A stretch of DNA of 57,514 bases. Source: Fibrobacterota bacterium. Lineage in GTDB: Bacteria; Fibrobacterota; Chitinivibrionia; Chitinivibrionales; FEN-1185. The translations under genes were made by a program, and so were the position numbers. This document shows positions 13,941 to 34,396 of this stretch, piece after piece. The notes beneath the pieces were generated by a model. It saw only the letters and a list, made by a program, of their open reading frames with translations, ran no database searches and was not told where the DNA came from. The DNA lies in the NCBI GenBank assembly GCA_003165595.1, contig PLWQ01000041.1:1-57514 (forward strand). The letters run 5' to 3'. How positions within the stretch are numbered: position 1 is the first letter of the stretch; each line of letters begins with the position of its first letter.

Positions 13941-13970
13941 TTGAAAATCGTGGTATCATTGTTACATTAT
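13941..13970 (+). promoter_or_regulatory. Candidate promoter of the saccharolytic locus
   Basis: TTGAAA (13941-13946), an 18-base spacer and CATTAT (13965-13970), about 95 bases before the first ATG. TACATT with a 16-base spacer is an alternative -10. Confidence 0.4.
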
Positions 13971-14064
13971 AGTCACGCGGTTAAGCGGGTTACCTTGAAA
14001 CGCGGTTGATGCCAAGAGAATAATTTCAATCACCCGGCGGACCACCAGAGGAAACTTTCATATC

Positions 14065-17684: not shown

Positions 17685-17786
17685 TTTCTCGCTCTGCATA
17701 ACATGGCCTGTTTTCCAAATACATTGGGACGTCGGGAACAGGCCAAAAGTAACCAGGAAACACCCGAGGGAGAGAGGGTTTTCAAC

Positions 17787-18947
17787 ATGGTACGTTCGGT
17801 TCTATTTGGAAGGAAGACATTCTTCTGCGCATCCGCGATGGCGTTGCTTTCCTTTTCCGCTTTTGCACAGCAGGCCGGCGTCACGCTCGGCGGGAAATTC
17901 GTCCCGAAAGATTCCATGTACGTGTTTCTGTTGTGGGGGAATTCGGTGATGTCGGGCAGGGACACGCCGGCAGACACCATCACAAATAATTACGCCTGGA
18001 AATATGTGATGACAGCCGATTGCGGAACGTACAAGGGAACCTGCCCGCCGCAATATTCCTGGCAGCCCGGCGTCGACCCCATGTGTTTTGACTCAAAGAA
18101 CCCTCTCAACGGCGCGATCAAATACAGCCCCGGCACGCCGCTGGTCAAGAGGCTGGTCAAGGATTATCCGGGATATCATTTCGGCATTGCGCAGTTGTCC
18201 GGTTCGGCGTGGAAGTTCACCAATTACCTGCCCACGTCCGGCGACTACAAGGCCATGGTGGCACAAGTAGACTCGCTCAAGCCGAAGGCGCATATAGCGG
18301 GAATAATCATGATTTTCAACATTGTCGAAATTCAGTACTCAAACGGGGATTCCACCTATGCGGATGTCGTCAACTACTTCAACAATATAGACACGGTAAT
18401 CACCCATTTCCGGCGCGACGTGGGCATCGACACCCTGCCTCTCATTCAGTCCGACTACCCCCTCCTTGGAGGCAAAGATACCACCTCCGATTACAGTGTA
18501 AAAGGCCCCTGGGCTTCCGCGATCCGGGTCTTGATGCGCAACAATGCCAAGGTGCCTCAGTTGATCGGAAACGCGCTCCTGATTCCAACGGACAGCCTTA
18601 CCATGTACACCGAAGACGGGTTATATACCCATTACAACCACAATGGCGACTACAAATGGGCAAACCGGGTGGCCGACTCCATACGGGCAAGAAATTGGGG
18701 GCCAACCAGGCTCACCACCGTCGCTCTGCCGCAAATCAATCGGTCGGGCAGGGCGGTCTCCCCTGCCCTGCGCGCGGTCCTTTTTAACGGGACAAACCCT
18801 GCGGTGTTTTCGGACGGCGGCAACCCGGTTGCGGTGTATTTGCCGAACGGAAAGATCGTCCGGTGCGCACCGGGCGCTGTATTGACAACAGGTAACCTTC
18901 GGCCCGGCGTCTATTTCGTTCGCCGGCGGGATTTGAAACAGGAATAA
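17787..18947 (+). CDS. Secreted SGNH hydrolase, CE6/SASA-like, second paralogue with sorting module
   Basis: A 386-residue product. The start at 17787 is supported by AGAGAGG about nine bases upstream and by a clean signal peptide (ending SAFAQQ). It shares GKFVPKDSMYVFLLWGNSVM plus SGRD with its neighbour (catalytic Ser in GNSVMSG), then HIAGIIMIFNIVEIQY. A C-terminal block YTHYNHNGDYKWANRVADSI aligns with the His block of the paralogue. It carries a longer insertion after the first block (CGTYKGTCPPQYSWQPGVDP), which could alter substrate reach. The tail (VAVYLPNGKIVRCAPGAVLT...GVYFVRRRDLK) is a sorting-type module. The stop is followed after 44 bases by the first BNR_4 gene. Confidence 0.78.
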   Translation: MVRSVLFGRKTFFCASAMALLSFSAFAQQAGVTLGGKFVPKDSMYVFLLWGNSVMSGRDTPADTITNNYAWKYVMTADCGTYKGTCPPQYSWQPGVDPMCFDSKNPLNGAIKYSPGTPLVKRLVKDYPGYHFGIAQLSGSAWKFTNYLPTSGDYKAMVAQVDSLKPKAHIAGIIMIFNIVEIQYSNGDSTYADVVNYFNNIDTVITHFRRDVGIDTLPLIQSDYPLLGGKDTTSDYSVKGPWASAIRVLMRNNAKVPQLIGNALLIPTDSLTMYTEDGLYTHYNHNGDYKWANRVADSIRARNWGPTRLTTVALPQINRSGRAVSPALRAVLFNGTNPAVFSDGGNPVAVYLPNGKIVRCAPGAVLTTGNLRPGVYFVRRRDLKQE

Positions 18948-18991: not shown

Positions 18992-20650
18992 ATGGTCAGC
19001 ATTTTCAAACCGCTCGCGCTTGCAGCATTCGCGGTAGCGATCTTTAGCGCCTCTTCCGTTCAATCAGCCGAATACCCGAAAGCCGGTGCGAGTTGCGCCA
19101 CGCTTGCGACGCAAGGCTGCTGGACGTGGTATCACGATTCCCGGGCGGTTTACTACAAGGGAACAAAGGAAAAGACCTACGTCGGCTACTTTTGCAGCTA
19201 CAAAAATCCCGGCGCCGCGGCTATTGCCTCGTACGATCATGCCACCGGGAAGATCGACACGTTTTACCTGAAAACCAATTTCGGGTTTGACGACCACAAC
19301 ACCGTCACGGTTCATGTCCTGCCCAACGGCCACATCATCACCTTTTACAGCGAACACTACGGTACGACGCTGTTCAGCCGCATTTCGACAAATGCGGAAG
19401 ACATTACCGCCTGGGGCGCGGAGAATGCAATCAACGTCAATTGCACGTATCCGAACGTCTGCCAGCTGAGCGCGGAAGGAACAAACGGCAACAGGCTCTA
19501 CGTGTTCTACCGTGGACCGTCAACACAGAGCGGCGATGCCGGCATGCCGTTTTTCATCACCAGCGATGACGGCGGCGTCACATGGACCGCGGAAACCAAA
19601 TACTTCTTTGGCGGCACGGAAGGCGCGGGCATGAGGCCTTATTGCAAATACGTGTCGAACGGCAAAGACAAGATTTACATGCTCATCGAAGGGGACAACC
19701 GCAACAACCTGCCGCCCAAACCCACCTATTTCATGTACTACTACAATGGCGGGTTCTATAAGATGAACGGCACCCTTATCAAGACAATGGCTCAAGTAAA
19801 GGCCGCGCCCATCACCACGGCCGACGTCGACACCGTGTTCTTCCCGGCCAAACCTCCGGACGGCCTGTCCAACGTGATCGGAACGGGCTGGGACGTTGCG
19901 CTTGACGGCGATGGTTATCCGGTTTTCGTCTATGATATTTACGATAACGCTACGGGCGGCCCCAACCACCGGTATTATTATTACCGATGGGACGGAACAA
20001 AATGGAACTCACATTTCCTTGTCAACAGCGGAATGCCCATGACGGAAGGCAATGTTGAAACGGGTTTCGGCGGCGGACTCATTCTGGATCATGCCAACCC
20101 GAATCTCATATATCTCAGCACCCATGTCAACGGCGTTTTCGAACTCCAGCGCTGGCTCACCGCCGACAAGGGATCGTCGTGGACAACCTGGCAAATCACG
20201 TCCGGCTCGGCTGCAAAGAACTGCCGTCCCATCGTGCCGCGTAATACTCCCGGCGGAAAGATCGACGTTGTCTGGAACTACGGCACGTACACAACTTGGG
20301 GCGGCCCGTTTTCCATGGACGTCAAGATGTACACGTTTGACTCGACTAAAATCGCCTCCGGCGTAACGCCGGTCAAGACCGGTTTCGAACGCCGCGCTCC
20401 CAAGGAGACCGGTTTCAACCTGCTGGTGAGCGGTCTGTCGTTTACGCTTGCCTCTCCAGCTTTGTCGACGCTCCGGATTTACAACGTGGAAGGCCGGATG
20501 GTGTCGGACCTTACATCGAGTGTCTGGCGGATGCATGCCGGCGTGAATGCCGTGCAATACAAGTCGGTAGGCCTCACCCGCGGCATGTATATCGCCCGGT
20601 TGTTCGACGGAGCGCAGAATTATTCGCAGAGTTTCGTGGTTCAGCGCTAA
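18992..20650 (+). CDS. BNR_4-family secreted beta-propeller, array member 1
   Basis: A 552-residue product. The ATG at 18992 follows AAAGGA by six bases and opens a clear signal peptide (ending VQSAEY); an in-frame start 45 bases earlier is not supported. Family landmarks are CWTWYHDSRAVYYKG (43-57), DDHNTV (100-105), GHIITFYSEHYG (113-124), TYPNVCQLSAEG, SDDGGVTW, RPYCKYVSNGKDKIYMLIEG, MYYYNGGFYKMNGT, FGGGLILDHANPNLIYLS and GSAAKNCRPIVPRNTPGGKI. It differs from most array members by HYG instead of HDG after the second blade and by DDHNTV instead of DDHNHP, features partly shared with member 2. It ends in a sorting module (LRIYNVEGRMVSDLTSSVWR). PF15892 relatives include PL24 ulvan lyases and other rhamnose-uronate enzymes; activity here is unproven. 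Confidence 0.88.
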   Translation: MVSIFKPLALAAFAVAIFSASSVQSAEYPKAGASCATLATQGCWTWYHDSRAVYYKGTKEKTYVGYFCSYKNPGAAAIASYDHATGKIDTFYLKTNFGFDDHNTVTVHVLPNGHIITFYSEHYGTTLFSRISTNAEDITAWGAENAINVNCTYPNVCQLSAEGTNGNRLYVFYRGPSTQSGDAGMPFFITSDDGGVTWTAETKYFFGGTEGAGMRPYCKYVSNGKDKIYMLIEGDNRNNLPPKPTYFMYYYNGGFYKMNGTLIKTMAQVKAAPITTADVDTVFFPAKPPDGLSNVIGTGWDVALDGDGYPVFVYDIYDNATGGPNHRYYYYRWDGTKWNSHFLVNSGMPMTEGNVETGFGGGLILDHANPNLIYLSTHVNGVFELQRWLTADKGSSWTTWQITSGSAAKNCRPIVPRNTPGGKIDVVWNYGTYTTWGGPFSMDVKMYTFDSTKIASGVTPVKTGFERRAPKETGFNLLVSGLSFTLASPALSTLRIYNVEGRMVSDLTSSVWRMHAGVNAVQYKSVGLTRGMYIARLFDGAQNYSQSFVVQR

Positions 20651-20704
20651 GCACGCGCCGGGGCAAAGGAACCGGTTTTTCTTCGATCACGAAGGACGAT
20701 GCTT

Positions 20705-20738
20705 GAGGACTCCCTGCGGCCTAATGCGGGGAGTCCTC
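20705..20738 (+). other. Stable intergenic hairpin between BNR_4 members 1 and 2
   Basis: GAGGACTCCC...GGGAGTCCTC with inner pairing (12 of 13 positions) and an 8-base loop. No T-tract follows, so it looks more like an mRNA processing or stabilising structure than a terminator. Confidence 0.5.
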
Positions 20739-20787
20739 AAACCATAGTGTAGATGGAAATCGCATAGCTCTTTTCCGGAGGACAACA

Positions 20788-20817
20788 ATGCGGAACGCGC
20801 TGTTGTCCGGAGGATAA
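20788..20817 (+). CDS. Nine-codon leader ORF coupled to BNR_4 member 2
   Basis: GGAGGACAACA is followed by ATG and nine codons (MRNALLSGG) and a TAA at 20815. The last two Gly codons and the stop (GGAGGATAA) are the ribosome-binding site of the next gene, whose ATG is two bases on at 20820. GGACAACA (20780-20787) pairs perfectly with TGTTGTCC (20801-20808), so a hairpin could occlude the first ribosome-binding site and start. The arrangement predicts translational coupling. There is no run of rare or single amino acids, so classic attenuation is not indicated. Confidence 0.5.
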   Translation: MRNALLSGG

Positions 20818-20819
20818 TC

Positions 20820-22460
20820 ATGAAGACCGGTGTCTGTTTCATCCACGGCAGCATGGCGGTTATGCTATGCGCGATCGCCGGGGTCCGCGGCCAGACACTT
20901 CCCCAGCCCGGAGCCAGTTTCCAGACATTCATGACCAAGTGCGTCTGGACCTGGTATGGCGAACCAAAAGCGGTTTACTACAAGGGAACCGCGGAAAAAA
21001 CGTATGTCGGCTATCTGCGCACTCTCACGAATCCGGCGACCGTGGAAATCGCCTCGTATAATCACAAGAACGGCGAGATCGACACCTTTCTGCTCAAATC
21101 AAACTTCGGCAACGACGACCATAATCACCCGAGCATCATTGTGAGAAACGACGGTCGAATCATGGCGTTCTACAGCCAGCATTACGGCGCCGGGCTCTTC
21201 ATGCGAATTTCACACAATGCCGAAGACATTACGCAGTGGGACGCGGAGCGCGTGATTTATCCCGACTCGTTCACCTATCCGAACGTCTATCAGATGAGCA
21301 ACCAGGGCAAGAACGGAAACAGGATCTACGTGTTCTTCCGCGGGAGCGGCGGCGCGGGACAGCCGAATCTCATCTACAGCGACGACGGCGGAACCACGTG
21401 GACCCCGCCGGTTGAGTTCTTCCAGGGAACCACCGCGGCAAACGACAGACCATATGTCAAATACGAATCCGACGGCACAAGCGTTGTTCACATGATCATT
21501 GAGCGGGACAACCGCAACAACGGTCCGGTTCCGTCCTTTTACCTCTGCTTCAAGGACAGCGCGTTTTACAAATCGGACGGCACGCTCATCCGCACCCTTG
21601 CCCAGGTGCGCGGCGGCGGGGGCTTCCTCACTCCCGCGGACGTGGAAACGGTGTACGATCCGGCCAATCCGCACCTCGATTCAAACCCGGGTCTCACCAA
21701 CCTGAAAGGGTCGGTCTGGGACGTGGGCATCGGCAGCGACGGACGGCCCGTCTTCCTGTTTGACATTTTCGACAACGACGGCACGAACCACTGGTATCAT
21801 TATTACCGGTACGACGGAACATCCTGGCGTCGCACGTTCCTTATCAATAGCGGCACGTTCATCGGCGCGGCCGGCACCGCCGAAACCGGATTTGCCGGCG
21901 GCCTCACCCTCGACCACGTCAATCCGAACGTCATTTACATATCCGCACAGGTCAATAGTGTTTTTGAACTTTCCCGGTGGGAATCACCGGACACAGGCAC
22001 AACATGGCAAAAGACCCAGATCACCAGCGGCTCCGGACTCAACCAGAACTTCCGGCCGTGCGTGCCGCGGGGATACGTGGGCGGAAAGGTCGGCGTTATC
22101 TGGCTGTGCGGACAGTACAGTTATTACACCGGCCCGTTTTCCTGCGACATAAGGACGTATTCGTTTGATCAGATTCAGTCGGTTCGGCAGAAATCGGCGG
22201 TTCTCGTTGCCTCCCCTTTCGGGCTTGATGTCCGGCGCAGCGGCATATCCTTTACGCTCGCGAATCCGCGCGCATCTTCGCTGCGACTGTATACCCTGGG
22301 CGGCAAGCTTGCGCTCGATTGCACCCGGCAGGTGCGGAGTTTGGGCGCGGGAAAGAACATGATTTCATGGAGCGGCACGGCGCTGGAGAATGGGGGGTAC
22401 GTTGCGTGTTTGGATAACGGAGCGTCATGCGTTTCGAGGACCGTAGCAATCGTAAGATAG
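20820..22460 (+). CDS. BNR_4-family secreted beta-propeller, array member 2
   Basis: A 546-residue product with signal peptide (ending GVRGQ). Landmarks: CVWTWYGEPKAVYYKG (41-56), DDHNHP (99-104), RIMAFYSQHYG, TYPNVYQMSNQG, SDDGGTTWTPP, RPYVKYESDGTSVVHMIIER, FKDSAFYKSDGT, FAGGLTLDHVNPNVIYIS and FRPCVPRGYVGGKVGVIW. It shares the KTYVGY and HYG variants with member 1, so the two form a subgroup. It ends with a sorting module (LRLYTLGGKLALDCTRQVRS). Its ribosome-binding site is embedded in a nine-codon leader ORF, unlike any other member. Confidence 0.88.
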   Translation: MKTGVCFIHGSMAVMLCAIAGVRGQTLPQPGASFQTFMTKCVWTWYGEPKAVYYKGTAEKTYVGYLRTLTNPATVEIASYNHKNGEIDTFLLKSNFGNDDHNHPSIIVRNDGRIMAFYSQHYGAGLFMRISHNAEDITQWDAERVIYPDSFTYPNVYQMSNQGKNGNRIYVFFRGSGGAGQPNLIYSDDGGTTWTPPVEFFQGTTAANDRPYVKYESDGTSVVHMIIERDNRNNGPVPSFYLCFKDSAFYKSDGTLIRTLAQVRGGGGFLTPADVETVYDPANPHLDSNPGLTNLKGSVWDVGIGSDGRPVFLFDIFDNDGTNHWYHYYRYDGTSWRRTFLINSGTFIGAAGTAETGFAGGLTLDHVNPNVIYISAQVNSVFELSRWESPDTGTTWQKTQITSGSGLNQNFRPCVPRGYVGGKVGVIWLCGQYSYYTGPFSCDIRTYSFDQIQSVRQKSAVLVASPFGLDVRRSGISFTLANPRASSLRLYTLGGKLALDCTRQVRSLGAGKNMISWSGTALENGGYVACLDNGASCVSRTVAIVR

Positions 22461-22524
22461 AAACATTTGTTTGTGTTCTATGGCGTACGCTAAAAAGGCA
22501 CTTCTTTAACAATCGGGGGCCTCT

Positions 22525-24249
22525 ATGATCAGGAGAAGCGTTGTCGCTTGCCCTGTAGCATTTGTCATCTGCGCTCTTGCATCTCACTTAAGCGCTCAGG
22601 CAATTCCCAAACCGGGCGAGCAATTCTCGTCGATCACTAAAGATGCCATTTACACCTGGTATGCCGAACCGAAGGCGATCTATTACGAAGGCGTGCACAA
22701 ACGTACTTATATGGCGTGGAACACGTCGACCGGCACCAAGGGCATCGCGTACTACGATCACGACACCAAGGACACCCTCGTCACCACGCTGCCGCCCATG
22801 CCCTACGGCGCAGACGACCATAACCACCCGGCAATCATTGTCCGGCCCGACGGCAGAATCGTTATCTTCTGCACCGGCCATGACGGCGGGACCATCACCG
22901 AATTGATATCCAAGAATCCCGAAGACATCACTTCGTGGCAGACGGCAATCAATCCCGGCGGCAACGGCGGCTATTGCTATCCCAACGCGATCTTCCTCAA
23001 GGGAGAAGGCACCCAGGGCCGCTTGTACCTTTTTTTCCGCGACAACGCCGGCGGCTATCCCGACGGTACGGTGGTTTGGGAACCGTGCTTTTGCTTCAGC
23101 GATGACTGGGGAGTCACCTGGAGCAGGAAGTACCACATGTTCACGGGCGGCAGCTACAAGCCCTATTGCAAGTACGCATCAGACGACAGTACCGAAATCC
23201 ACGTTGTTGTCGAACGGGAAAACAGGCAGGGCAATTCCGCGGTCAAGCCCATCTATTTCATGAAATACAAGAACGGAACGTTCTACTGCGCCAACGGCCG
23301 CCAGCTCGCCACCATGGCAACGCTCCCTGTTCACGATTATCAGATGGACACGATCTTCTATGCCAACCGGTTCGGCTGCAGCAATACCTGCTATGATCTT
23401 GCGCTCGATGCCAACAAGAATCCTGTAACGGTGATGGACATGTTTAAGGACACGTCGATAAATATTTACTGGTATATGCGCTGGACCGGAACCACATGGT
23501 TCAAGACACCTTTTGTCAACAGCGGTATGTACCGCGGCTGCCAGAGCGGTTTTGCGGCAGGCGTCACGCTCGATCACGAGAACCCGAGTAACGTGTATCT
23601 TTGCCGCCAGATGCTTACACCAACGGCGACGCCGTTTAATATGGCGGACACAAGCTATACAAACTACAAGAATAATCTCAAAGCCACGTGCTGGACAACG
23701 TCGGCATATCCTCACGAACTTGAGAAATGGACTACGCCGGACGGTGGCGCCACGTGGGACACCTTGCCTATCACACGTAATACTTTGTCAAGTGTGTATA
23801 TGAACACCAACTGCCTGCCGTGCGTTCCCCGCCACCACAAAGCGGGGACAAAGATCGAGGTGATGTGGCTCAACGGCATCTACCAGAGCATGAGCCCCAC
23901 GCCCATCAACGGCATTCCCGGATATCAGCTGGCGCTGCGCGTGTACCCGTTCCTGGAAACCGTGGGGACGCAGCCATCCGGCGAATCGAAGATCTCGGCC
24001 CGCGCTTCTAGTCTCAAGATTAGCCGTGCGGGAATCGCGTTCGCGCTTGTTAGCCCGGCGCGCGCGTCGCTCTCGTTGTACTATTCCAATGGCAAGTTGA
24101 TGGGCAATTTCACGCCGCTTGTCCGCGGCATGAATCCCGGCGCCGCGTATCTGCCGTTCTCCGCACTATCCGTAAAGGGTGGCGTGTATATCGCGAAACT
24201 TGACAATGGACAATCGATAACAACAAACAGAATCGTAATCCCCCAATAA
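22525..24249 (+). CDS. BNR_4-family secreted beta-propeller, array member 3
   Basis: A 574-residue product with signal peptide (ending HLSAQA). Landmarks: YTWYAEPKAIYYEG (43-56), DDHNHP (97-102), FCTGHDG (115-121), YCYPNAIFLKGEG, SDDWGVTWSRK, KPYCKYASDDSTEIHVVVER, MKYKNGTFYCANGR, FAAGVTLDHENPSNVYLC and LPCVPRHHKAGTKIEVMWLN. Cys-rich insertions (WEPCFCF, RFGCSNTCYD) suggest disulphides. It ends with a sorting module (LSLYYSNGKLMGNFTPLVRG). Start ATG follows a GGGGGCC tract. It stops 12 bp before member 4. Confidence 0.9.
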   Translation: MIRRSVVACPVAFVICALASHLSAQAIPKPGEQFSSITKDAIYTWYAEPKAIYYEGVHKRTYMAWNTSTGTKGIAYYDHDTKDTLVTTLPPMPYGADDHNHPAIIVRPDGRIVIFCTGHDGGTITELISKNPEDITSWQTAINPGGNGGYCYPNAIFLKGEGTQGRLYLFFRDNAGGYPDGTVVWEPCFCFSDDWGVTWSRKYHMFTGGSYKPYCKYASDDSTEIHVVVERENRQGNSAVKPIYFMKYKNGTFYCANGRQLATMATLPVHDYQMDTIFYANRFGCSNTCYDLALDANKNPVTVMDMFKDTSINIYWYMRWTGTTWFKTPFVNSGMYRGCQSGFAAGVTLDHENPSNVYLCRQMLTPTATPFNMADTSYTNYKNNLKATCWTTSAYPHELEKWTTPDGGATWDTLPITRNTLSSVYMNTNCLPCVPRHHKAGTKIEVMWLNGIYQSMSPTPINGIPGYQLALRVYPFLETVGTQPSGESKISARASSLKISRAGIAFALVSPARASLSLYYSNGKLMGNFTPLVRGMNPGAAYLPFSALSVKGGVYIAKLDNGQSITTNRIVIPQ

Positions 24250-24261
24250 AAGGAGTCCGGT

Positions 24262-25977
24262 ATGTCGATCGGAAAATTGCTTGTCTTGGCAGCATGCGCG
24301 TGTGCCGCGCTGTGCATTGCACCCGCGAACACCACGGCCCAGGCCATTCCCAAGCCCGGAGAACAGTTTGCCCCCATTGCCACCGACGGCATGTGGACCT
24401 GGTACGGCGAGCCGAAAGCTGTTTACTATGAAGGTACCTACAGAAGAACCTACATGACGTGGAATACCTCCTCCGGAACAAAAGGGATCGCCTATTACGA
24501 TCACGATACAAAAGACACGGCAAATGCGTCACTGCCGGCAATGCCCTATAATGGCAGCGACCACAATCATCCTGCGATTATCATGCGGCCCGACGGAAAG
24601 ATCATGGTTTTCTGCACCGGCCACGACGGCGGCGAAGTAACGGAGTACATTTCCAAAAATCCCGAAGACATTAAAGGCGGATGGGACGGCCCGTATTATC
24701 CGGGCGGCAAAGGCGGCTATTGCTATTGCAACGCAATATTCCTGAAGAACGAAGGCACGAAGGGACGTTTCTACATTTTCTACCGTGACAATACGCAATA
24801 TACCGGAGAAACGACCAATTACTGTCCTGCCTTCTGCACCAGCGACGACTGGGGCGTCACGTGGAGCGGCAAGACCCGTTTGTATACATACGCGGGCAGT
24901 GCATATAAGCCCTATCTCAAGTATGCTTCCGATGGACTTTCCGAAATATACATATCCATCGAATACCAGAACCGTGAAGGAGCCGGACAAGGCAGACCCG
25001 ATTATTTTATGAAATACCATAACGGCACTTTCTATACTGTCGACAACAGGGTGCTCGCCACCATGGCCACGCTGCCGGTTATCAACACGCAGCTCGATAC
25101 TATATTCTACCCATACACCTACGGAGCCGGATTCAGCAACACATGCTGCGACATTGCAATCGACGCAAACAACAATCCGGTGATCCTCTACTGCGCTTTC
25201 CAGAGCACGACGCTGTACGAATACTGGTATATGCGCTGGACCGGCACGACGTGGTACAAGAGGCCGCTTATCAACAGCGGAGCCTATCGCGGCGCACAGA
25301 GCGGATTTTTTGCCGGCCTCACGTTCGACCACGAGAACCCCAACAACATTTACCTGTGCAGGCAGCTGCTCAAGCCTGCGGGCACGCCCTTCAATCTTAT
25401 GGATACCTCTGTCGCAAATTACAAAACCCTTACGCCAGCCGCATGGACAACCGTCGACGCCGTGCATGAACTTGACAGATGGACAACCAGCGACGGCGGC
25501 GTCACCTGGGACAGCCTCGCCATCACCCGGGGCTCAACCAACAAGAACATGCTGCCCTGCGTTCCGCGGAACCACAAGCCCAATATGAAGGTGGACTGCA
25601 TGTGGCTCAACGGCGTGTACACGAGCATGGATCCGAGCGGCTATAATTGCGCGGTTAGAATATTCCCCTTCAAAGACGGAGAAACGCTGCCTACCACGTC
25701 TGCGCAGCCCGTGTTCCAATCCATGCCTGCGCCGCACGGAATGGTCTGCAACAGTACCGCTGTAACCTTCTTCCTGGCGCATCCGGAAAAGGCATCCTGC
25801 AAAGTGTATTCGCTGAAGGGAAGCCTGGTTGCGGACCTGACGCCGCTTGTTCGTTCAATGAAGGCCGGCCATGCCGTCCTGCCCTTTTCGGCCCTGCGCA
25901 CTGCCAGCGGGGCATGCATCATTGCTCTTGACAATGGCAGCACGAGGATCACCGGCAACGTGTTCGTCACCAAGTAA
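24262..25977 (+). CDS. BNR_4-family secreted beta-propeller, array member 4
   Basis: A 571-residue product, AAGGAG six bases before ATG, signal peptide ending about residue 27 (NTTAQA). Landmarks: MWTWYGEPKAVYYEG (44-58), SDHNHP (99-104, first Asp replaced by Ser relative to DDHNHP), FCTGHDG (117-123), GYCYCNAIFLKNEG, SDDWGVTWSGK, YKPYLKYASDGLSEIYISIE, MKYHNGTFYTVDNR, FAGLTFDHENPNNIYLCRQ and NMLPCVPRNHKPNMKVDCMW. It is very close to member 5, including the EYQNREGAG(Q/A)GRPDYF stretch, and so a recent duplicate. It ends with a sorting module (CKVYSLKGSLVADLTPLVRS). Confidence 0.9.
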   Translation: MSIGKLLVLAACACAALCIAPANTTAQAIPKPGEQFAPIATDGMWTWYGEPKAVYYEGTYRRTYMTWNTSSGTKGIAYYDHDTKDTANASLPAMPYNGSDHNHPAIIMRPDGKIMVFCTGHDGGEVTEYISKNPEDIKGGWDGPYYPGGKGGYCYCNAIFLKNEGTKGRFYIFYRDNTQYTGETTNYCPAFCTSDDWGVTWSGKTRLYTYAGSAYKPYLKYASDGLSEIYISIEYQNREGAGQGRPDYFMKYHNGTFYTVDNRVLATMATLPVINTQLDTIFYPYTYGAGFSNTCCDIAIDANNNPVILYCAFQSTTLYEYWYMRWTGTTWYKRPLINSGAYRGAQSGFFAGLTFDHENPNNIYLCRQLLKPAGTPFNLMDTSVANYKTLTPAAWTTVDAVHELDRWTTSDGGVTWDSLAITRGSTNKNMLPCVPRNHKPNMKVDCMWLNGVYTSMDPSGYNCAVRIFPFKDGETLPTTSAQPVFQSMPAPHGMVCNSTAVTFFLAHPEKASCKVYSLKGSLVADLTPLVRSMKAGHAVLPFSALRTASGACIIALDNGSTRITGNVFVTK

Positions 25978-25994
25978 AGGAATAAGGGGGAGCC

Positions 25995-27716
25995 ATGAAG
26001 TCCTGGAAAACAGTCTCTTTGTACTTGTGTGCGGTCGCTCTGATGTGCTTTGTTTCGAATGCCCGGGCTCAGGCGATCCCGAAACCCGGCGAGCAATTCG
26101 CCGCAATCAACAACGACGGCATGTGGACCTGGTATGGCGAACCCAAGGCGGTTTACTTCGAAGGGACGCACCGGCGCACCTACATGGCCTGGAACAAGAG
26201 CACCGGCGACAAGCAGGTCGGCTATTACGATCACGACACCAAGGAAACCCTCTCGGTGATCATGCCGAAAATGCCGTATAACGGGGATGATCACGATCAT
26301 CCGTCAATCATCATGCGGCCGGACGGAAAGCTCATTCTTTTTTGCACCGGGCACGACGGCAATCAGGTGACGGAGTACATCATGAAGAACGCCGAAGACC
26401 TGTCGTCCGGTTGGGACGGCCCCTATTATCCGGGCGGTAACGGCGGCTATTGCTATCCCAACGCTGTGTTCCTGAAGAATGAGGGAACGAAAGGACGGTT
26501 CTACATTTTCTACCGGGATAATACAAAGCTTTCTGCCGCGGATACCGTCAATTATTGCCCGTCTTTCTGCACCAGCGACGACTGGGGTGTCACCTGGAGC
26601 GCCAAGAAGCGGCTGTACCAATACGTGGGGAGCGCGTACAAACCCTATCTCAAGTACGCGACCGACGGGCTTTCGGAAATATACATATCAATCGAATTCC
26701 AGAACCGGGAAGGCGCGGGAGCCGGACGGCCTGACTACTTCATGAAATACCAGAATGGGACATTTTACGCGGCAGACAACCACGTGCTTGCCACGATGGC
26801 CACGCTGCCGGTTTTCAACACGCAGCTCGACACCATTTTCTACGCATACCGGTACGGCGCCGGCTTCAGCAACACCGCGTGCGACATAGCAATCGACCCG
26901 AACAATAACCCGGTGATCCTGTACTGCTCGTTTTTAGACACGTCGCTGTACGAGTATTGGTACATGCGTTGGACGGGCACGTCCTGGTTCAAGCGGCCGA
27001 TTGTCAACAGCGGAGCCTACCGCGGCGCCCAGAGCGGATTCTTTGCCGGCCTCACCTTCGACCACGAGAACGCCAACAACATTTACGTATGCCGTCAGCT
27101 CCTGAAGCCGGGCGCTGTAGCATTCAACCTTCAGGACACATCCGTCGCCAATTACAAAACCATCAAGGCATCGGACTGGGTAACCCTCGACGCCGTGCAT
27201 GAGCTTGAGCGTTGGACGACCACCGACGGCGGCATCACCTGGGACACCGTTGCGATTACCCGCGGTTCCGCGAACAAGAATATGCTGCCCTGCGTCCCAC
27301 GGAATCACAAGCCGAACATGCAAGTGGACGTTATGTGGCTCAATGGCGTTTACACGAGCATGGCCCCCGACAATGGCGGCTACAATTGCGCAGTAAGAAT
27401 GTTTCCCCTTAAAGCCGGAGAAGCCCTCCCTCTTACCGCTGCTGTGCCGTCGTATCAGTCGCCGATCGCGCCGCGGGGAATGGTTTACAACAACAAAGGC
27501 GTGACTTTCTTTCTGACACATCCGGAACGGGCTTCGTGCAGGGTGTACTCGCTCAACGGCGGATTGATTGCAGATCTTACACCTCTGGTTCGCTCGATGA
27601 AGGCGGGGCATGCGACGCTACCCTTCTCGTCATTTTGCGGCGCCAGCGGCGCCTGCGTCGTGGCACTTGACAATGGCACTACGAGGATTACAGGGGGCGT
27701 GTTCGTTACCAAATAA
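25995..27716 (+). CDS. BNR_4-family secreted beta-propeller, array member 5
   Basis: A 573-residue product, ATG preceded by AAGGGGGAG at good spacing, signal peptide ending NARAQA (about residue 26). Landmarks: MWTWYGEPKAVYFEG (43-57), DDHDHP (98-103), FCTGHDG, GYCYPNAVFLKNEG, SDDWGVTWSAK, YKPYLKYATDGLSEIYISIE, MKYQNGTFYAADNH, FAGLTFDHENANNIYVCRQ and NMLPCVPRNHKPNMQVDVMW. It is nearest to member 4 over its whole length. It ends with a sorting module (CRVYSLNGGLIADLTPLVRS). The following 240-bp gap, one of the longest inside the array, carries an interspersed repeat. Confidence 0.9.
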   Translation: MKSWKTVSLYLCAVALMCFVSNARAQAIPKPGEQFAAINNDGMWTWYGEPKAVYFEGTHRRTYMAWNKSTGDKQVGYYDHDTKETLSVIMPKMPYNGDDHDHPSIIMRPDGKLILFCTGHDGNQVTEYIMKNAEDLSSGWDGPYYPGGNGGYCYPNAVFLKNEGTKGRFYIFYRDNTKLSAADTVNYCPSFCTSDDWGVTWSAKKRLYQYVGSAYKPYLKYATDGLSEIYISIEFQNREGAGAGRPDYFMKYQNGTFYAADNHVLATMATLPVFNTQLDTIFYAYRYGAGFSNTACDIAIDPNNNPVILYCSFLDTSLYEYWYMRWTGTSWFKRPIVNSGAYRGAQSGFFAGLTFDHENANNIYVCRQLLKPGAVAFNLQDTSVANYKTIKASDWVTLDAVHELERWTTTDGGITWDTVAITRGSANKNMLPCVPRNHKPNMQVDVMWLNGVYTSMAPDNGGYNCAVRMFPLKAGEALPLTAAVPSYQSPIAPRGMVYNNKGVTFFLTHPERASCRVYSLNGGLIADLTPLVRSMKAGHATLPFSSFCGASGACVVALDNGTTRITGGVFVTK

Positions 27717-27805
27717 GACCGAGGGGGAAACGCCGGAACGGTGAACAGTGTGGTGATACGATATGCCGGGGATACAATTTCCGCGGGCTCAAAAGGGGAC
27801 GCTCG

Positions 27806-27850
27806 TTATTGCGAGCGAAGCGAGGCAATCGCTTCTCATTGGAGAACCTG
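27806..27850. repeat. Interspersed repeat of the RAERSNL type
   Basis: Contains TATTGCGAGCGAAGCGAGGC followed by AATCGCTTCTCA, the reverse-complement form of the unit at 5400-5433. It lies in the 27717-27956 gap between array members 5 and 6. I saw nothing else in that gap beyond the next gene's ribosome-binding site. Confidence 0.65.
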
Positions 27851-27956
27851 CACAGAATGACACCCGGCCAATTGGGAAAATTGTCTTAGACGAGTTCGGC
27901 AGTACTTGACGTATCGAAGAATCTCTGCTGCCGGGTTATCGAAAAAGGGGGATCAA

Positions 27957-29531
27957 ATGTCATTTCGCTCATCAGCCATTCTCATTTCTTGTCTATCCTT
28001 TGTTCTCGCGGCGGCTTTCCACCCGCAAGCACAGACGCTCCCGGCTCCGGGCGCAAATTTCTCGCACATTACCAACAACGGCGTCTGGACCTGGTACGGC
28101 GAGCCCAAGGCGGTTTACTATGAGGGAGCGCATAAGCGCACCTACATTGGCTGGCTTTCGAATACGGGTACAGTCGGGGTAACGTCCTACGATCAAGAAA
28201 CCGGCGACACGCTTACGCACGTCATCCGAACCAACTACGATCTCGACGACCATGCACACCCGAGTATTATCATGAGGCCCGACGGCAGGTTGCTGGTTGC
28301 CCTGGCCGCGCACGACGGCGCAATCTTGAGCATCTACATTGCCACGAACCCTGAGGATGTTTCGTCCTTTGGACCCGAAAACCAGATCCATGCGGACCCG
28401 GGCGCGGGGTTCTGCTATCCCAACCTCCTGTGGCTTTCCGCCGAAGGCAACAGCGGCAGGCTCTATTGCTTTATCCGCGGCCTGGAAACGCTGCCCTCTT
28501 ATTTGTACTCCGACGACTGGGGAACTACGTGGACGCACGCGCGGGTGTTTTTCCATAGCACCGACAGCACACCCAAGCCTTATTGCAAATATGCGAGCAA
28601 CGGGAAAGATGAAGTCCACATGGTTATCGAGCGCGGCAATCGACAAGCCAGTTATCCTTCATATTATATGAAATACAAAGCCGGCGTGTTTTCCCAGGCG
28701 GATGGGACGCCGATCGCCGACACGGCACATCTCCCAATCTGGAATTCCCTCATCGATACTTTGCACAATCCGGCTCTTGCTAAAAGCAATGGATCCGTAT
28801 GGGATGTGGCGATTGATGCGTTCGGAAGACCCGTCATAGTGTATGATCAATTCCCGGATGGGAACAATCATTATTATATGTACATGCGCTGGACCGGGAC
28901 CTCATGGTTCAAGAAAACCCTGCTCAACTCAGGAATGAATATGGGGGGGCAGGACGGATTTGCCTCCGGCATAACTCTTGATCACGAAAACCCGTCCATC
29001 GTTTATCTCGCCCGCCAGATAGGGTCGGTGCCGGAACTAGATAAATGGGTTACTCACGACAGCGGTACAACCTGGGATACCACAGCGATAACACGCGGCT
29101 CGGCCAAGAAGAACTGCAGGCCGTGCGTACCGCGCGGGCACAAGGCGGGTGGAAACATCGAACTGATCTGGCTCTACGGGGACTACACTGGTTATGATGG
29201 CGGCGCATGGAACATGGCGGTGGACATGTATCCGTTTAGGCAACCGGTTGCAGCGCAGGTGCCTGCGCGCGAAGTAGTGTCATTTGCCGCAGCTTTGAGA
29301 GTCACTTCTTCGGGATTGTCCATGATGATTCCCGATCCCGCCGCATCGTCGCTGAGGTTGTATTCCCTCAACGGACGGCTCGCAGCCGACCTTTCCGCAC
29401 GGGTCAGGGCAATGCAAGCCGGACGATCGTTCGTTCCTTTCACCGCGTTACACCATGCAAACGGAGCATTTATCGTTATATTCAATGATGGTACGCGGGT
29501 GTCAACCCAAACATTTGTTCTAAACAGGTAA
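27957..29531 (+). CDS. BNR_4-family secreted beta-propeller, array member 6
   Basis: A 524-residue product. The ATG at 27957 follows AAGGGGGATCAA and opens the signal peptide (ending HPQAQ); 17 residues upstream in frame are unlikely. Landmarks: VWTWYGEPKAVYYEG (43-57), DDHAHP (97-102), LAAHDG (116-121), FCYPNLLWLSAEG, SDDWGTTWTHA, KPYCKYASNGKDEVHMVIER, MKYKAGVFSQADGT, FASGITLDHENPSIVYLARQ and CRPCVPRGHKAGGNIELIWL. The FCTG before HDG in members 3-5 is replaced by ALAA. It ends with a sorting module (LRLYSLNGRLAADLSARVRA). Sixteen bp to member 7, its closest relative. Confidence 0.9.
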   Translation: MSFRSSAILISCLSFVLAAAFHPQAQTLPAPGANFSHITNNGVWTWYGEPKAVYYEGAHKRTYIGWLSNTGTVGVTSYDQETGDTLTHVIRTNYDLDDHAHPSIIMRPDGRLLVALAAHDGAILSIYIATNPEDVSSFGPENQIHADPGAGFCYPNLLWLSAEGNSGRLYCFIRGLETLPSYLYSDDWGTTWTHARVFFHSTDSTPKPYCKYASNGKDEVHMVIERGNRQASYPSYYMKYKAGVFSQADGTPIADTAHLPIWNSLIDTLHNPALAKSNGSVWDVAIDAFGRPVIVYDQFPDGNNHYYMYMRWTGTSWFKKTLLNSGMNMGGQDGFASGITLDHENPSIVYLARQIGSVPELDKWVTHDSGTTWDTTAITRGSAKKNCRPCVPRGHKAGGNIELIWLYGDYTGYDGGAWNMAVDMYPFRQPVAAQVPAREVVSFAAALRVTSSGLSMMIPDPAASSLRLYSLNGRLAADLSARVRAMQAGRSFVPFTALHHANGAFIVIFNDGTRVSTQTFVLNR

Positions 29532-29546
29532 TCCAGGAGGCAATTC

Positions 29547-31121
29547 ATGCTGTCACGAAAATTGATTTTAAAGAGTGCGGTGCTTTTCCTGCTGGCGTCA
29601 GGGTATGCGTACCTTGGCTGTGCACAAGCCATTCCCAAGGCCGGGGCCAATTTCACCTCGGCCACCGACAACGGCGCATGGACGTGGTACGGCAATCCCG
29701 ATGCCGTTTACCACGAAGGCACGTACAAGAAAACCTATATGGGCTGGATCTCCAATGCCGGCGTTGTCTCCGTCGCGTCTTACGACCACACTTCGGGTAC
29801 CATGGCAACCAAAGCCCTGCAGACCATGGCCGCCGACGATCACAGCCATCCAAGCCTTCTCATGCGTCCGGACGGCCGGCTCATGGTATTTGTCACCGGC
29901 CACGACGGCCCGACACTTAACATGTACGTTTCAACAAGTCCGGAGGACATCTCCGCGTTCCAGCCGGCGGTGTCAATAACGCCCGGCGATCTCCACTGCT
30001 ATCCCAATCCGATGTTCCTGAGTGCGGAAGGCGACAGCGGCAGGATCTATTGCTTTTACCGAAGCATGGGACTCAAACCATGTTTTTCGTACAGCGATGA
30101 CTGGGGAAAGACCTGGACGCCTACGAAGAACTATTATACCAATCCCGACAGTACACCCAAGTCATATGTCAACTACTGCTGCAACGGGAAAGACGAAATC
30201 GACATCGTGATAGAAAAAGGCCACCGCGCCGGGTATTGGCCGCTGTATTACCTCAAGTACAAAAACGGCGCGTTCTGGAAAGTCGATGGCACGAAACTGG
30301 CGACAATGGACCAGTTGCCTGTTATCAATACGAAGCTGGACACGGTGATGGATCCGCAAGCCGCTGGTTGTCACGGTTCTGCCTGGGACATCGCCCTTGA
30401 CAATTCCGGACTGCCGGTGATCGCCTACGACCAGTTCAAGGACGCAAACAACCATGTTTACTATTATATCCGCTGGACCGGCACATCGTGGTTCAAGAAA
30501 ATGCTTGTCAACAGCGGCGCTACCATGGGCGCCGAAGACGGGTTCGCCGGCGGCATCACCCTGGATCACGACAACACCGCCAACATCTATATGTCGAGAC
30601 AGATAAGCGGCATGCATGAAATTGACAAGTGGACAACCCTTGACGGTGGAACCACCTGGGATTCCACCGCCATCACCCGCGGTTCGGCCAACAAAAACAC
30701 AAGGCCGATCGTGCCGAGATTCCACAAGCCGTACGACAAAATCGACGTGGTGTGGATGTACGGCAGTTACAGCGCCTTCACCGGTACCGGGTACAATACG
30801 GCGGTGAAGATGTACCCGTTCTCCGAGCCGGTAAGCGCTCGCCCGCTCGCCCTCAACAGCCGCGGCGCCGGCCCTGGCCGGCTGGAACTTTGTGCTCGCG
30901 GGATTTCTTTCTTGCTTGCCGATCCTGGCCGTGCGTTTCTCAAAGTATATGCCATGAATGGCGCCCTTGTGAGCGATCTTTCCGGATCGCTGCGCGACAT
31001 GCGTGTCGGCAAGGTATTTCTTTCTTTTTCGCAATTGCGGTGCGCCACCGGCGCGTATGTGATCGCTGTCGGAAACGGAGCGTACGTGGTCGCTCAGCGT
31101 GTGGCAGTTTCCCCACGGTAA
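29547..31121 (+). CDS. BNR_4-family secreted beta-propeller, array member 7
   Basis: A 524-residue product, AGGAGG six bases before ATG, export signal ending around LGCAQA; Cys25 sits in a poor lipobox (YLGC), so lipidation is possible but not convincing. Landmarks: AWTWYGNPDAVYHEG (44-58; N, D and H replace the E, K and Y of most members), DDHSHP (97-102), VTGHDG, HCYPNPMFLSAEG, SDDWGKTWTPT, KSYVNYCCNGKDEIDIVIEK, LKYKNGAFWKVDGT, FAGGITLDHDNTANIYMSRQ and TRPIVPRFHKPYDKIDVVWM. It ends with a sorting module (LKVYAMNGALVSDLSGSLRD). Changes in the first conserved block suggest altered specificity. Confidence 0.9.
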   Translation: MLSRKLILKSAVLFLLASGYAYLGCAQAIPKAGANFTSATDNGAWTWYGNPDAVYHEGTYKKTYMGWISNAGVVSVASYDHTSGTMATKALQTMAADDHSHPSLLMRPDGRLMVFVTGHDGPTLNMYVSTSPEDISAFQPAVSITPGDLHCYPNPMFLSAEGDSGRIYCFYRSMGLKPCFSYSDDWGKTWTPTKNYYTNPDSTPKSYVNYCCNGKDEIDIVIEKGHRAGYWPLYYLKYKNGAFWKVDGTKLATMDQLPVINTKLDTVMDPQAAGCHGSAWDIALDNSGLPVIAYDQFKDANNHVYYYIRWTGTSWFKKMLVNSGATMGAEDGFAGGITLDHDNTANIYMSRQISGMHEIDKWTTLDGGTTWDSTAITRGSANKNTRPIVPRFHKPYDKIDVVWMYGSYSAFTGTGYNTAVKMYPFSEPVSARPLALNSRGAGPGRLELCARGISFLLADPGRAFLKVYAMNGALVSDLSGSLRDMRVGKVFLSFSQLRCATGAYVIAVGNGAYVVAQRVAVSPR

Positions 31122-31278
31122 GAAAACAAACAGGGCGAAAAGCGGCAATTGGGCTTATAATATAAGGGCGGCATGGTCATTGACCTCCATTATTGCTGAT
31201 CAAATGACCTTGCTGAAGAAAGAACGAAAAGGAGTTCTAATCGATTAAATTGCTGGTCTCTTTAAAAGGGGGGGAATC

Positions 31279-32955
31279 ATGCGATCTTCAAGTACTTCGT
31301 TGCTGGGTCTTTTGTCGGCGGCGGTATTGGTGGCAATCCCGCTGACACTTCGCGCCCAAACAATTCCGCAGCCGGGAGAGAGCTTCCCGGCAATCACCAC
31401 CAACGGCATGTGGACATGGTACGGCGAACCAAAAGCCGTTTACTACGAGGGAACTCACCGGCGTACCTATATCGGCTGGAATTCCAACATCAGCACCGGA
31501 GCCCAATTCGTCGGCTACTACGATCACGACACAAAAACAACTGCTCAGGTAGAGCTTCCCAGGCATTATCCCGCAGACGACCACAATCATCCGAGCGTGA
31601 TCGTTCGTCCCGACGGCAGAATCATGATTTTCCATACCGGGCATGACGGCAAAGAAATCTCGGAATATATTTCCAAACAGCCGGAAGATATTACTGCTCT
31701 GGACACCTTTACGGTCACGATCCTCGATTGGTGCTGTTACCCCAACGTCTGCTTCCTCAAGAATGAAGGGACCAAGGGCAGATACTACCTGTTCTTCCGC
31801 GACCTGAACCAGGAGCCCTGGTTCCGTACCAGCGACGACTGGGGAGTAACATGGAGCAAGGAACTCAATCTTTACACCAACAACCCGCATGGCTACAAGC
31901 CGTATTTCAAATGCGCCTCCAACGGCATTGACGAAATCCATATCGACGTAGAGCGTGAAAACCGAGCCGGCGGCGGCAACATCCCCACCTATTACATGAA
32001 ATACAAGAACGGCGCGTTTTACCAGGCAAGCGGTAAGCTGATCACCACCATCGACAAGCTGCCCATTGTCAACACCGTTCTCGACACCGTGATTTATCCC
32101 GGCGCCTACGGTGCCGGCGGCACGGTGTGGGACATCATGTACGATGCGAACGACAATCCCGTTATCCTCTACGACATGTTTTTTAATAACAACTCGACTC
32201 ATGTGTACTGGTATTTACGGTGGAACGGAAGCTATTGGTTTAAAAGGCCGCTGATTAACAGCGGCAATAACATGGGCGTCGCCGGGCAGCAGTTCTGCGG
32301 CGGGTTTACCTTCGACCACGAAAACCCGAACACTATTTACATGTCGCGCCAGTTGCTTAAGTCCAGCGCTACTCCGTTCAACCTTGCGGACACAAGCTTT
32401 GCAAATTACAAGAAGATTGCCCTCACGAATTTTGTGACGGTAGATTCCGATTTCGAACTTGACAAGTGGACCACCGCCGACGGCGGCCTTACCTGGGACT
32501 CGGTGGCAATCACGCGTGGGTCGGCGGCAAAGAACATCCGTCCCTGCGTACCGCGCGGTCACAAAGACAATATGAACGTCAACCTTATCTGGCTCGACGG
32601 CACCTGCACAAGCATGGGCGGCGACGGGTACAACATGGCGGTGAGAATGTATCCGACCGACCGGACCGTGTCCGTTTCGGATGCACACCGGGCCGTTGCA
32701 GGAAGCACTGCTTTGAGCCTGCAGATTACCGGAACCGGCGTACAGTTCGTTCTTGACAATCCGCTGCGGGCATCCCTAAAAATCTTCACTCTCAAGGGAT
32801 CTCTGGTTGCGGATCTTTCAAAACGAGTGCGGGCCATGGCCTCCGGGGCGGGCATGATCCCCTTTGCCGACCTGGGCTGCCGCAGCGGCACCTACATGCT
32901 TGAACTTGACAATGGACAGAACAGCGCCGCCCGGAGCATGGTGATGGTCAGGTAA
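31279..32955 (+). CDS. BNR_4-family secreted beta-propeller, array member 8
   Basis: A 558-residue product, ATG after AAAAGGGGGGGAATC, signal peptide ending TLRAQT. Landmarks: MWTWYGEPKAVYYEG (44-58), DDHNHP (100-105), FHTGHDG, CCYPNVCFLKNEG, SDDWGVTWSKE, YKPYFKCASNGIDEIHIDVE, MKYKNGAFYQASGK, FCGGFTFDHENPNTIYMSRQ and IRPCVPRGHKDNMNVNLIWL. It groups with members 3-5. It ends with a sorting module (LKIFTLKGSLVADLSKRVRA). The preceding 157-bp gap contains TATAATATAA (31156-31165) without an obvious -35. Confidence 0.9.
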   Translation: MRSSSTSLLGLLSAAVLVAIPLTLRAQTIPQPGESFPAITTNGMWTWYGEPKAVYYEGTHRRTYIGWNSNISTGAQFVGYYDHDTKTTAQVELPRHYPADDHNHPSVIVRPDGRIMIFHTGHDGKEISEYISKQPEDITALDTFTVTILDWCCYPNVCFLKNEGTKGRYYLFFRDLNQEPWFRTSDDWGVTWSKELNLYTNNPHGYKPYFKCASNGIDEIHIDVERENRAGGGNIPTYYMKYKNGAFYQASGKLITTIDKLPIVNTVLDTVIYPGAYGAGGTVWDIMYDANDNPVILYDMFFNNNSTHVYWYLRWNGSYWFKRPLINSGNNMGVAGQQFCGGFTFDHENPNTIYMSRQLLKSSATPFNLADTSFANYKKIALTNFVTVDSDFELDKWTTADGGLTWDSVAITRGSAAKNIRPCVPRGHKDNMNVNLIWLDGTCTSMGGDGYNMAVRMYPTDRTVSVSDAHRAVAGSTALSLQITGTGVQFVLDNPLRASLKIFTLKGSLVADLSKRVRAMASGAGMIPFADLGCRSGTYMLELDNGQNSAARSMVMVR

Positions 32956-33085: not shown

Positions 33086-34396
33086 ATGAAAGCAAAAACG
33101 TGGGTGGCCGGCTTCTGTGTCGTGTTCGCTGCGCAGATTGTTCTTGCTCAGCCGGAATTCACCTCGGACAGTATCGTGAGCGTTTGCAAACGTGTTGCGC
33201 AGGGCAGGCTCAAGACGACCATGGGCAACGGCTGGGAAGAAGGGACATACTATGCAGGCGTCATGGCGCTGTACAACTTGACAAAAGACTCCCGTTACCT
33301 GGACAGCGCAATTGCCTGGAGTACCTATCACAAATGGCTTTCCGGCAATGGCGACACCCTGGGGACCAATGCCAACGACGCCGCGTGCTTTCAAACGTAT
33401 CTTGAGATCTATTTCAAGGATCCTCAGCCTGCCGGAATTGCGGCAGCAGTCCGGTACGTGGATTACTATCATGCCATTACCTCGCCCACCTACAGCATTA
33501 TCGATTATTACTTCATGGCTGCGCCAAATTTTACCCGGGTCTACACAATCAATCATGATTCCACGATCCCTGATTCGCTCCTGTCTATTTCCGTTGCGGT
33601 CGCAAAAAGGCATTTCAACGCCAAGGACAGCGTCTATTCTTCCAACAGCAGCGACACCACCGTCGACCACAACTTCTGGGGACGCGGATGCGGCTGGGGT
33701 GTCGGGTCAATTTGCAGAATATTGCAGTATCTCCCGCTGGATCACCCGTCACGGCCGTTCTATGTTGATAAGTTGCGCCGCGTCCTTGCCAGACTCATAC
33801 ATCTTCAGGACAAGACCGACTGGATGTGGCGCAGCAACCTTACGCATCCGACACTGACCCCGAACAAGGAAGCCAGTTGCACCAGCCTGTTCTGTTTTGG
33901 ACTTTTCTACGCCATTAACAACGGGATCGTGGATACGACAACCTATTTGGAGCCTGCGAAGAAAGCATGGAAGGCGCTTCTGGATTGCATCGGCGTTGAT
34001 CCCCAGAGTCCCAACCTCATCGGCTGGTCGCAGGGCGTAGGAGGATCCCCGTCAAACAATTTCGGTGCAACGAATCATGATCCGTACACCGAGGGCGCGT
34101 TCTTTATGGCGGGAAACGAGTTCAACAAATTTCTTAATCCGTCAACCGCAACCGGCGGCACCGTACGCTCCTCGCTTTCTGCCCCTCTGCGCAGGCCGGA
34201 TCGGATTGCGCTTCATCCCGTGCTCGGCGGTCTTCGCGTTGCTTTGCCGGAAAACGCCAGAGGGTTTGAGGTCTATGCCCTCGACGGGCGCAAGGTGTGT
34301 GAGCAAGGGGCCATTGCGCCGGGAACCGCGGCTTGCGTGATTCCGCGAAGCATGCTGGCGGGCGGCACAACAGTCGTTGTACGATTCACATATTGA
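33086..34396 (+). CDS. Secreted GH105/GH88-like unsaturated uronyl hydrolase, first paralogue, with sorting module
   Basis: A 436-residue product with signal peptide ending IVLAQP. GH105 landmarks: NGWEEGTYYAGVMALYNLTK, NANDAACFQTYLEIY (a position matching the first catalytic Asp of YteR), IIDYYFMAAPNFTRVY (second catalytic Asp region, DxxFMA), FWGRGCGWGV, LARLIHLQDKTDWMWRSNL, NKEASCTSLFCFGLFYAINN and KAWKALLDCIG. The family removes the 4,5-unsaturated uronate left at the non-reducing end by polysaccharide lyases, usually from rhamnose-linked disaccharides. The tail (FEVYALDGRKVCEQGAIAPG) is a sorting-type module, so it acts outside the cytoplasm, unlike many family members. Placement right after eight candidate lyases fits this role. 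Confidence 0.87.
   Translation: MKAKTWVAGFCVVFAAQIVLAQPEFTSDSIVSVCKRVAQGRLKTTMGNGWEEGTYYAGVMALYNLTKDSRYLDSAIAWSTYHKWLSGNGDTLGTNANDAACFQTYLEIYFKDPQPAGIAAAVRYVDYYHAITSPTYSIIDYYFMAAPNFTRVYTINHDSTIPDSLLSISVAVAKRHFNAKDSVYSSNSSDTTVDHNFWGRGCGWGVGSICRILQYLPLDHPSRPFYVDKLRRVLARLIHLQDKTDWMWRSNLTHPTLTPNKEASCTSLFCFGLFYAINNGIVDTTTYLEPAKKAWKALLDCIGVDPQSPNLIGWSQGVGGSPSNNFGATNHDPYTEGAFFMAGNEFNKFLNPSTATGGTVRSSLSAPLRRPDRIALHPVLGGLRVALPENARGFEVYALDGRKVCEQGAIAPGTAACVIPRSMLAGGTTVVVRFTY

Follow-up and report, generated by a model that had tools for sequence, protein, structure and literature searches.

Eight tandem BNR_4 propeller genes in a Fibrobacterota operon, predicted to encode exported uronate lyases

The window analysed here comprises 57,514 nucleotides of contig PLWQ01000041.1 from a Fibrobacterota bacterium (assembly GCA_003165595.1) and contains, at positions 18992–32955, eight intact BNR_4 (PF15892) genes arranged head to tail on one strand, without internal stops. 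Sequence comparison, structural models and analogy with characterised enzymes make it likely that these genes encode exported propeller lyases of the kind found in polysaccharide lyase (PL) families 25 and 42, which would act by β-elimination at uronates and hand the products to the glycoside hydrolase (GH) 88/105 enzymes of the same operon. The view of the array as a battery of uronate β-elimination lyases is well supported by residue conservation, modelling and the fusion of such a propeller to GH105.

Modelled fold and predicted catalytic centre of the array proteins

The curated PF15892 cut-off (27.3 bits, whole-protein score) was passed by all eight members with 66.5–108.9 bits, which confirmed the row of eight consecutive intact paralogues described in a first-pass annotation made from the sequence alone. 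When a profile of the eight sequences was compared with the Protein Data Bank (PDB), the PL25 structure 5uam was the best match (E 1.6e-8); PL25 and sialidases were matched, PL42 was not, and member 8 used alone found no chain. The AlphaFold2 models of members 7 and 4 (pLDDT 85.7 and 83.2) matched GH145 at Z 37.0 and 35.4, PL25 at 35.9 and 34.1 (for member 7 and 5uas, 2.6 Å over 360 residues) and PL42 at 34.2 and 31.6, respectively. Propeller lectins were matched at Z 26.8 and 26.5, and the match to PL24 was clearly weaker (Z about 21–24).

His123, His143, Tyr188 and Arg204 of PL25 fell on columns that are invariant in all eight members and throughout the genus, whose array-type proteins number 18; the catalytic residues are also nearly invariant in relatives across phyla. 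The pivot Asp, which precedes the first His by two residues, was found in seven of the eight members, being replaced by Ser in member 4 and its orthologue. The PL42 counterparts of these residues, His85, His105, Tyr150 and Arg166, and its pivot Asp83 are required if the enzyme is to be fully active (PMC8377490, PMC10951650), and a His-His-Asp motif is present in the PL24 propeller lyases (PMC10951650). The anterior site of GH145 is a lyase site, the product of which is consumed by GH105 (PMC8406133). Judged by modelled fold and centre, the array proteins are propeller lyases of the PL24/25/42 kind, as first proposed. The annotation had set against its own proposal the outcome of binding propellers devoid of active-site residues; instead, seven members carry the full site of His, His, Tyr, Arg and pivot Asp. 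The complete set of PL25 zinc ligands (His208, His264, Cys266 and His278) was present in no member, PL25 Lys125 and Tyr246 were not conserved, and the structure-based identity to PL25 was 19%. By sequence and zinc site, the array is placed outside PL25.

The motif list of the annotation held overall, with departures in several members: SDDWGxTW reads SDDGGxTW in members 1 and 2, in which VPRxHK reads VPRNT or VPRGY; DHENP reads DHANP, DHVNP, DHENA and DHDNT in members 1, 2, 5 and 7; and WTWYxxP carries S in member 1 and is YTWY in member 3. Signal peptides were judged by eye only. The predicted C-terminal sorting module was borne out in part: matches confined to the C-terminus showed the same tail on further proteins in dozens of the phylum's genomes, but the cut-off of the type IX secretion system profile TIGR04183 (23 bits) was passed by member 1 alone, at 23.2 bits.

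Linkage to GH88/105 and the proposed mechanism

The genes stand in an operon-like order: a divergent TIGR02147 regulator, two related secreted proteins without a family, two SASA esterases, the eight propellers and two GH88/105 genes. The strongest functional link lies outside the window, in a Chlorobiota metagenome-assembled genome (MAG), where a single protein of 782 residues has BNR_4 (57–318) fused to GH88/105 (439–780; locus L098). In a Chitinispirillaceae MAG, an array-type propeller gene lies beside GH105 (L099), and a gene resembling the regulator of the window, as judged by position and sequence and not by profile, was found near the Chitinispirillaceae BNR_4–GH105 pair (L089). The link to GH105 was thus seen four times (two operons, the Chitinispirillaceae pair and the Chlorobiota fusion). 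Mangrovibacterium marinum has a weaker GH88-like neighbour of its BNR_4 relative, and for most of the remaining relatives from other phyla no GH105 lies within reach of the gene. The BNR_4–GH105 link is recurrent, not universal.

The sequences and models show how the genes are ordered, which family and fold they belong to, which active-site residues they carry, that a second species conserves them and that GH105 is linked or fused to them; that they are catalysts, in what order the steps run and on which substrate is inferred. In seven members, one His would serve as both base and acid, taking the C5 proton of the uronic acid and protonating the leaving oxygen, with the second His, Arg and Tyr neutralising the carboxylate and Asp holding the two His. 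The product would end in an unsaturated uronic acid, to be removed by the GH88/105 enzymes of the operon; acyl groups would be taken off by the SASA esterases, and the copies would differ in the neighbouring sugars that they accept.

Conservation of the array in a second species

The sole other genome of the genus that was examined (G001), with genes paired to those of the window by sequence, has a corresponding operon: a divergent regulator (DUF4423-like, judged by position and sequence and not by profile), two proteins without a family, a pair of esterases, seven BNR_4 genes ordered as in the window and a single GH105. Member 2 is missing. Since it is the deep sister of member 1 in the tree, it was most likely lost from the G001 lineage, to judge from the sequences. 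The seven shared members are 75–85% identical between the species (member 1, 77%; 3, 85%; 5, 81%; 6, 79%; 8, 76%) and the paralogues 30–77%; the lyases are more conserved than the remaining operon genes, i.e., esterases, proteins without a family and GH105 (48–73%). The ratios of nonsynonymous to synonymous substitution (dN/dS) were 0.08–0.16 in all seven orthologue pairs (0.078 for member 3 and 0.136 for member 4), rough values as dS was near saturation (1.1–1.7). These ratios indicate purifying selection on every one of the shared members. With seven members retained in the same order and each under such selection, the sequence comparison places the expansion of the array before the divergence of the two species.

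In the tree, the array proteins formed one clade, with orthologues pairing within each subgroup, and three dispersed BNR_4 copies of the same genome grouped with the subgroups of members 1, 7 and 8. The subgroups 1–2 and 3–5 with 8 of the first-pass annotation were recovered, but 6 and 7 were not resolved as sisters. Members 4 and 5 are 76% identical, and their split is older than that of the two species; other paralogue pairs share only 30–55%. The tree indicates that the subgroup differences are old. Recent amplification of the array was rejected, as the orthologue table and the tree show old, separately paired copies. An assembly artefact was also ruled out, the members being mutually 30–77% identical and seven orthologues occurring in the same order in the second genome; the genome carrying the array comprises 5.39 Mb in 42 contigs and is 98% complete.

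The common operon and the active site shared by all copies would also fit a dosage amplification, in which eight copies of one activity raise enzyme output. Amplification of this sort usually yields near-identical copies, whereas here all but 4 and 5 are 30–55% identical, the subgroups diverged long ago and every orthologue pair shows conservation of its own; we regard dosage as unlikely. The suggestion that the copies may act on several linkage variants is plausible, given their age, their divergence and the purifying selection on them.

Member 4 and its altered centre

Ser99 of member 4 (codon 24556..24558, + strand) stands at the place of Asp83 of the PL42 enzyme FoRham1, and Cys156 (codon 24727..24729, + strand) replaces the Pro directly after the catalytic-site Tyr. 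Both changes adjoin catalytic residues, and they are the only joint departures of member 4 and its orthologue at columns invariant in the other array proteins of the genus. The variant SDHNHP had already been reported in the annotation and can now be specified as the loss of the pivot Asp. In FoRham1, activity of D83A and D83E was undetected and D83N kept 13% (PMC10951650). Because an essential pivot Asp is replaced, member 4 is by this analogy probably altered or inactive as a catalyst: it would work slowly, have a different pH range or serve in binding. Alternatively, the Asp directly before the His may take over the pivot role.

A bolder form of the proposal, which we advance tentatively, is that the array founds an as yet unclassified family of propeller lyases whose uronic polymer is acetylated and free of sulfate, with member 4 as a conserved pseudo-lyase, maintained by purifying selection, that would bind the substrate or, through Ser for the pivot Asp, have changed chemistry beside its active sister, member 5.

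Substrate and alternative readings

No sulfatase exceeded the cut-off anywhere in the genome. The lack of sulfatases, the missing PL25 zinc ligands and the presence in the operon of two of the three SASA esterases of the whole genome point most likely to an unsulfated, probably acetylated or acylated uronic-acid polymer made by plants or microbes. The hint at ulvan in the annotation fared poorly, since the same absences of sulfatase and zinc ligands make ulvan an unlikely substrate.

True ulvan lyases (PL25 or PL24), cleaving the sulfated algal rhamnoglucuronan, would accord with PL25 as the best PDB profile match and with the GH105 gene at 33086, which also matches 4ce7, an ulvan-specific unsaturated 3S-rhamnoglycuronyl hydrolase. 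They would be expected neither in a genome free of sulfatases over the cut-off nor with the PL25 zinc ligand set, Lys125 and Tyr246 not conserved, and they would leave the esterases unexplained, ulvan not being known to carry acetyl groups. The 19% identity to PL25 also falls far below the range within that family. SH2L_Ulv3 shares 45–51% with the other characterised PL25 enzymes (PMC13193363). Altogether, ulvan lyases appear quite unlikely.

Very unlikely, in our judgement, are non-catalytic, lectin-like propellers that would hold cells or enzymes on the polymer. The lectin matches at Z about 26.5 and the missing pivot Asp of member 4 speak for them, and so does a distant relative in an Eisenbacteria MAG (L102, 2759–4444) that lacks both catalytic His and lies beside an arylsulfotransferase and a C25 peptidase; from its sequence it is a probable natural non-catalytic member. 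However, binding alone would not require that the catalytic residues stay unchanged among deep paralogues and almost unchanged from phylum to phylum, nor would it account for the GH105 fusion and linkage, and lyase structures matched the models about 5–10 Z units better than lectins.

GH145-type α-L-rhamnosidases working at the posterior face are scarcely credible despite giving the highest Z (tied with PL25 within about 1), since in the array the column of the posterior catalytic His48 is occupied by Thr, Ala, Val, Ile or Lys (in a loop where the alignment is uncertain), about half of the members lack the adjoining His and GH145 itself retains the anterior lyase site (PMC8406133).

Some points weigh against the uronate lyase proposal. 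Identity to any characterised lyase is below 20%, and the relative without both His shows that the fold can be non-catalytic. In addition, growth on rhamnose-uronate products is not evident from the gene content, because RhaA, KduI and GH78 were sought in the genome and not found. PL8 was not found there either, by a search that also matched no control and hence does not demonstrate that it is absent. Fibrobacter succinogenes degrades matrix polymers without using them (PMC3079729). The polymer may possibly be stripped without being eaten, as in that species, or alternative routes may be used.

Genes and regulatory region of the operon

The features of the operon are collected in Table 1. The intergenic gaps between 14065 and 35759 are short, about 12–240 bases, varying with the start codons chosen for members 1 and 6. 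The two secreted or outer-membrane-like proteins gave no Pfam or NCBIfam match. Both catalytic Asp of the family are kept in the GH88/105 proteins.

Table 1. Features of the array operon and its regulatory region (positions in the window)
Feature	Coordinates	Strand	Evidence
Regulator, TIGR02147/DUF4423 with helix-turn-helix (HTH)	12595..13731	-	TIGR02147 E 4.5e-83; PF14394 E 4e-34
Divergent promoter region, regulator and operon	13732..14064	.	two best sigma-70-like matches of the region
Secreted or outer-membrane-like protein, no family	14065..15318	+	37% identical to next gene; congener counterpart 51%
Paralogue of the 14065 gene	15362..16495	+	37% identical to 14065..15318 protein
SASA-type carbohydrate esterase	16560..17684	+	PF03629 E 3.2e-11
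SASA-type carbohydrate esterase	17703..18947	+	PF03629 E 2.4e-11
Member 1, BNR_4 lyase (predicted)	18992..20650 (open reading frame, ORF, opens 18947)	+	PF15892 103 bits
Member 2, BNR_4 lyase (predicted)	20820..22460	+	PF15892 90 bits
Member 3, BNR_4 lyase (predicted)	22525..24249	+	PF15892 77 bits
Member 4, BNR_4, altered catalytic centre	24262..25977	+	PF15892 68.5 bits
Member 5, BNR_4 lyase (predicted), nearest paralogue of 4	25995..27716	+	PF15892 66.5 bits
Member 6, BNR_4 lyase (predicted)	27957..29531 (ORF opens 27906, TTG)	+	PF15892 89.8 bits
Member 7, BNR_4 lyase (predicted)	29547..31121	+	PF15892 108.9 bits
Member 8, BNR_4 lyase (predicted)	31279..32955	+	PF15892 75.8 bits
GH88/105 unsaturated uronyl hydrolase	33086..34396	+	PF07470 E 2.6e-46; matches 4q88, 5noa, 4ce7
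GH88/105 unsaturated uronyl hydrolase, retained by congener	34428..35759	+	PF07470 E 1.1e-37; congener gene 73%

One sigma-70-like match was found in each direction between the regulator and the operon, at 13940–13912 (- strand, 11/12) and 13995–14024 (+ strand, 10/12); the totals of the promoter and terminator scans of the region were not above chance. At about 13780–13815 of the window, a palindrome-like TCTTACT...GTAAGA followed by an A run is kept in the otherwise poorly conserved regulator–operon gap of the congener and is a candidate operator. Directly past the operon, on the opposite strand, lies a cytochrome c7-like multihaem gene (35897–36859).

Elsewhere in the same genome, four consecutive GH88/105 genes were found at L088 (6557–12204) on a contig (C32) with no BNR_4. 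With these four in a row and ten GH88/105 genes in all, the second step of the predicted pathway is expanded in this genome too. At a further locus, L096 (10070–14057), a GH105 gene lies next to four genes in tandem for secreted proteins of some 325 residues, and N-termini like theirs occur beside another GH105 at L097 (10277) and beside a dispersed BNR_4 copy at L025 (8840, with CBM6).

Distribution of BNR_4 genes

PF15892 was matched in 20 of 168 genomes of the phylum, with at most four copies outside the genus of the array, and 20 genomes of other phyla with relatives had one to three copies each; these genome sets are samples, and larger arrays may exist elsewhere. Within the 168 genomes, the large paralogous expansion noted in the annotation was upheld, as no other genus exceeded four copies. 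A search of genome contigs gave 22 loci when led by member 7 and set wider, and none when led by member 1. A literature search yielded no paper describing BNR_4 genes in tandem arrays. The neighbours of the relatives in rumen Prevotella gave no consistent partner, GH78 occurring in one and GH2 and GH43 near others. A Fibrobacterota genome that is more distantly related has genes alternating in the order BNR_4, PL8, BNR_4, PL8 (L095, 3683–14342).

An operon of eight long-diverged lyase paralogues, conserved independently of one another and represented by orthologues in the congener, would offer a system in which the splitting of substrate range among duplicates on one scaffold can be followed, and an unusually large natural test set for the diversification of such enzymes. 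Members 4 and 5 form a natural experiment on the His-His-Asp triad described by the neutron work on PL42. If the proposal is true, a group whose present substrates are ulvan and arabinogalactan would gain a lyase family directed at a polymer without sulfate.

Comparison with known systems

The nearest relatives found outside the genus are the Chlorobiota fusion and the Chitinispirillaceae pair, 34–37% identical and with the same five centre residues as the array. Each of these loci holds a single array-type gene and no tandem array; BNR_4 occurs once in the whole Chlorobiota genome and three times, on separate contigs, in the Chitinispirillaceae genome.

Among the characterised enzymes, the PL24 propeller lyases LOR_107 and Uly1 have a His-His-Asp motif like the array but match clearly less well in structure. 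PL42 (the former GH145), represented by FoRham1 (7ESK) and BT3686 (5MUK), shares the fold and the anterior-face centre of His-His-Asp, Tyr and Arg, and the passage of the GH145 lyase product to GH105 has its likeness in the GH88/105 genes of the operon; in contrast to the array, which is about 15% identical to them and does not keep the posterior His of GH145, these enzymes act on the capping rhamnose of arabinogalactan protein. The PL25 ulvan lyase PLSV_3936 (5UAM/5UAS) is likewise a seven-bladed propeller, and its His123, His143, Tyr188 and Arg204 are kept in the array; the array proteins, at 19% identity, differ from it in the lack of the zinc site and of conserved Lys125 and Tyr246, in the C-terminal tail, in their eight copies and in being accompanied by esterases instead of sulfatases.

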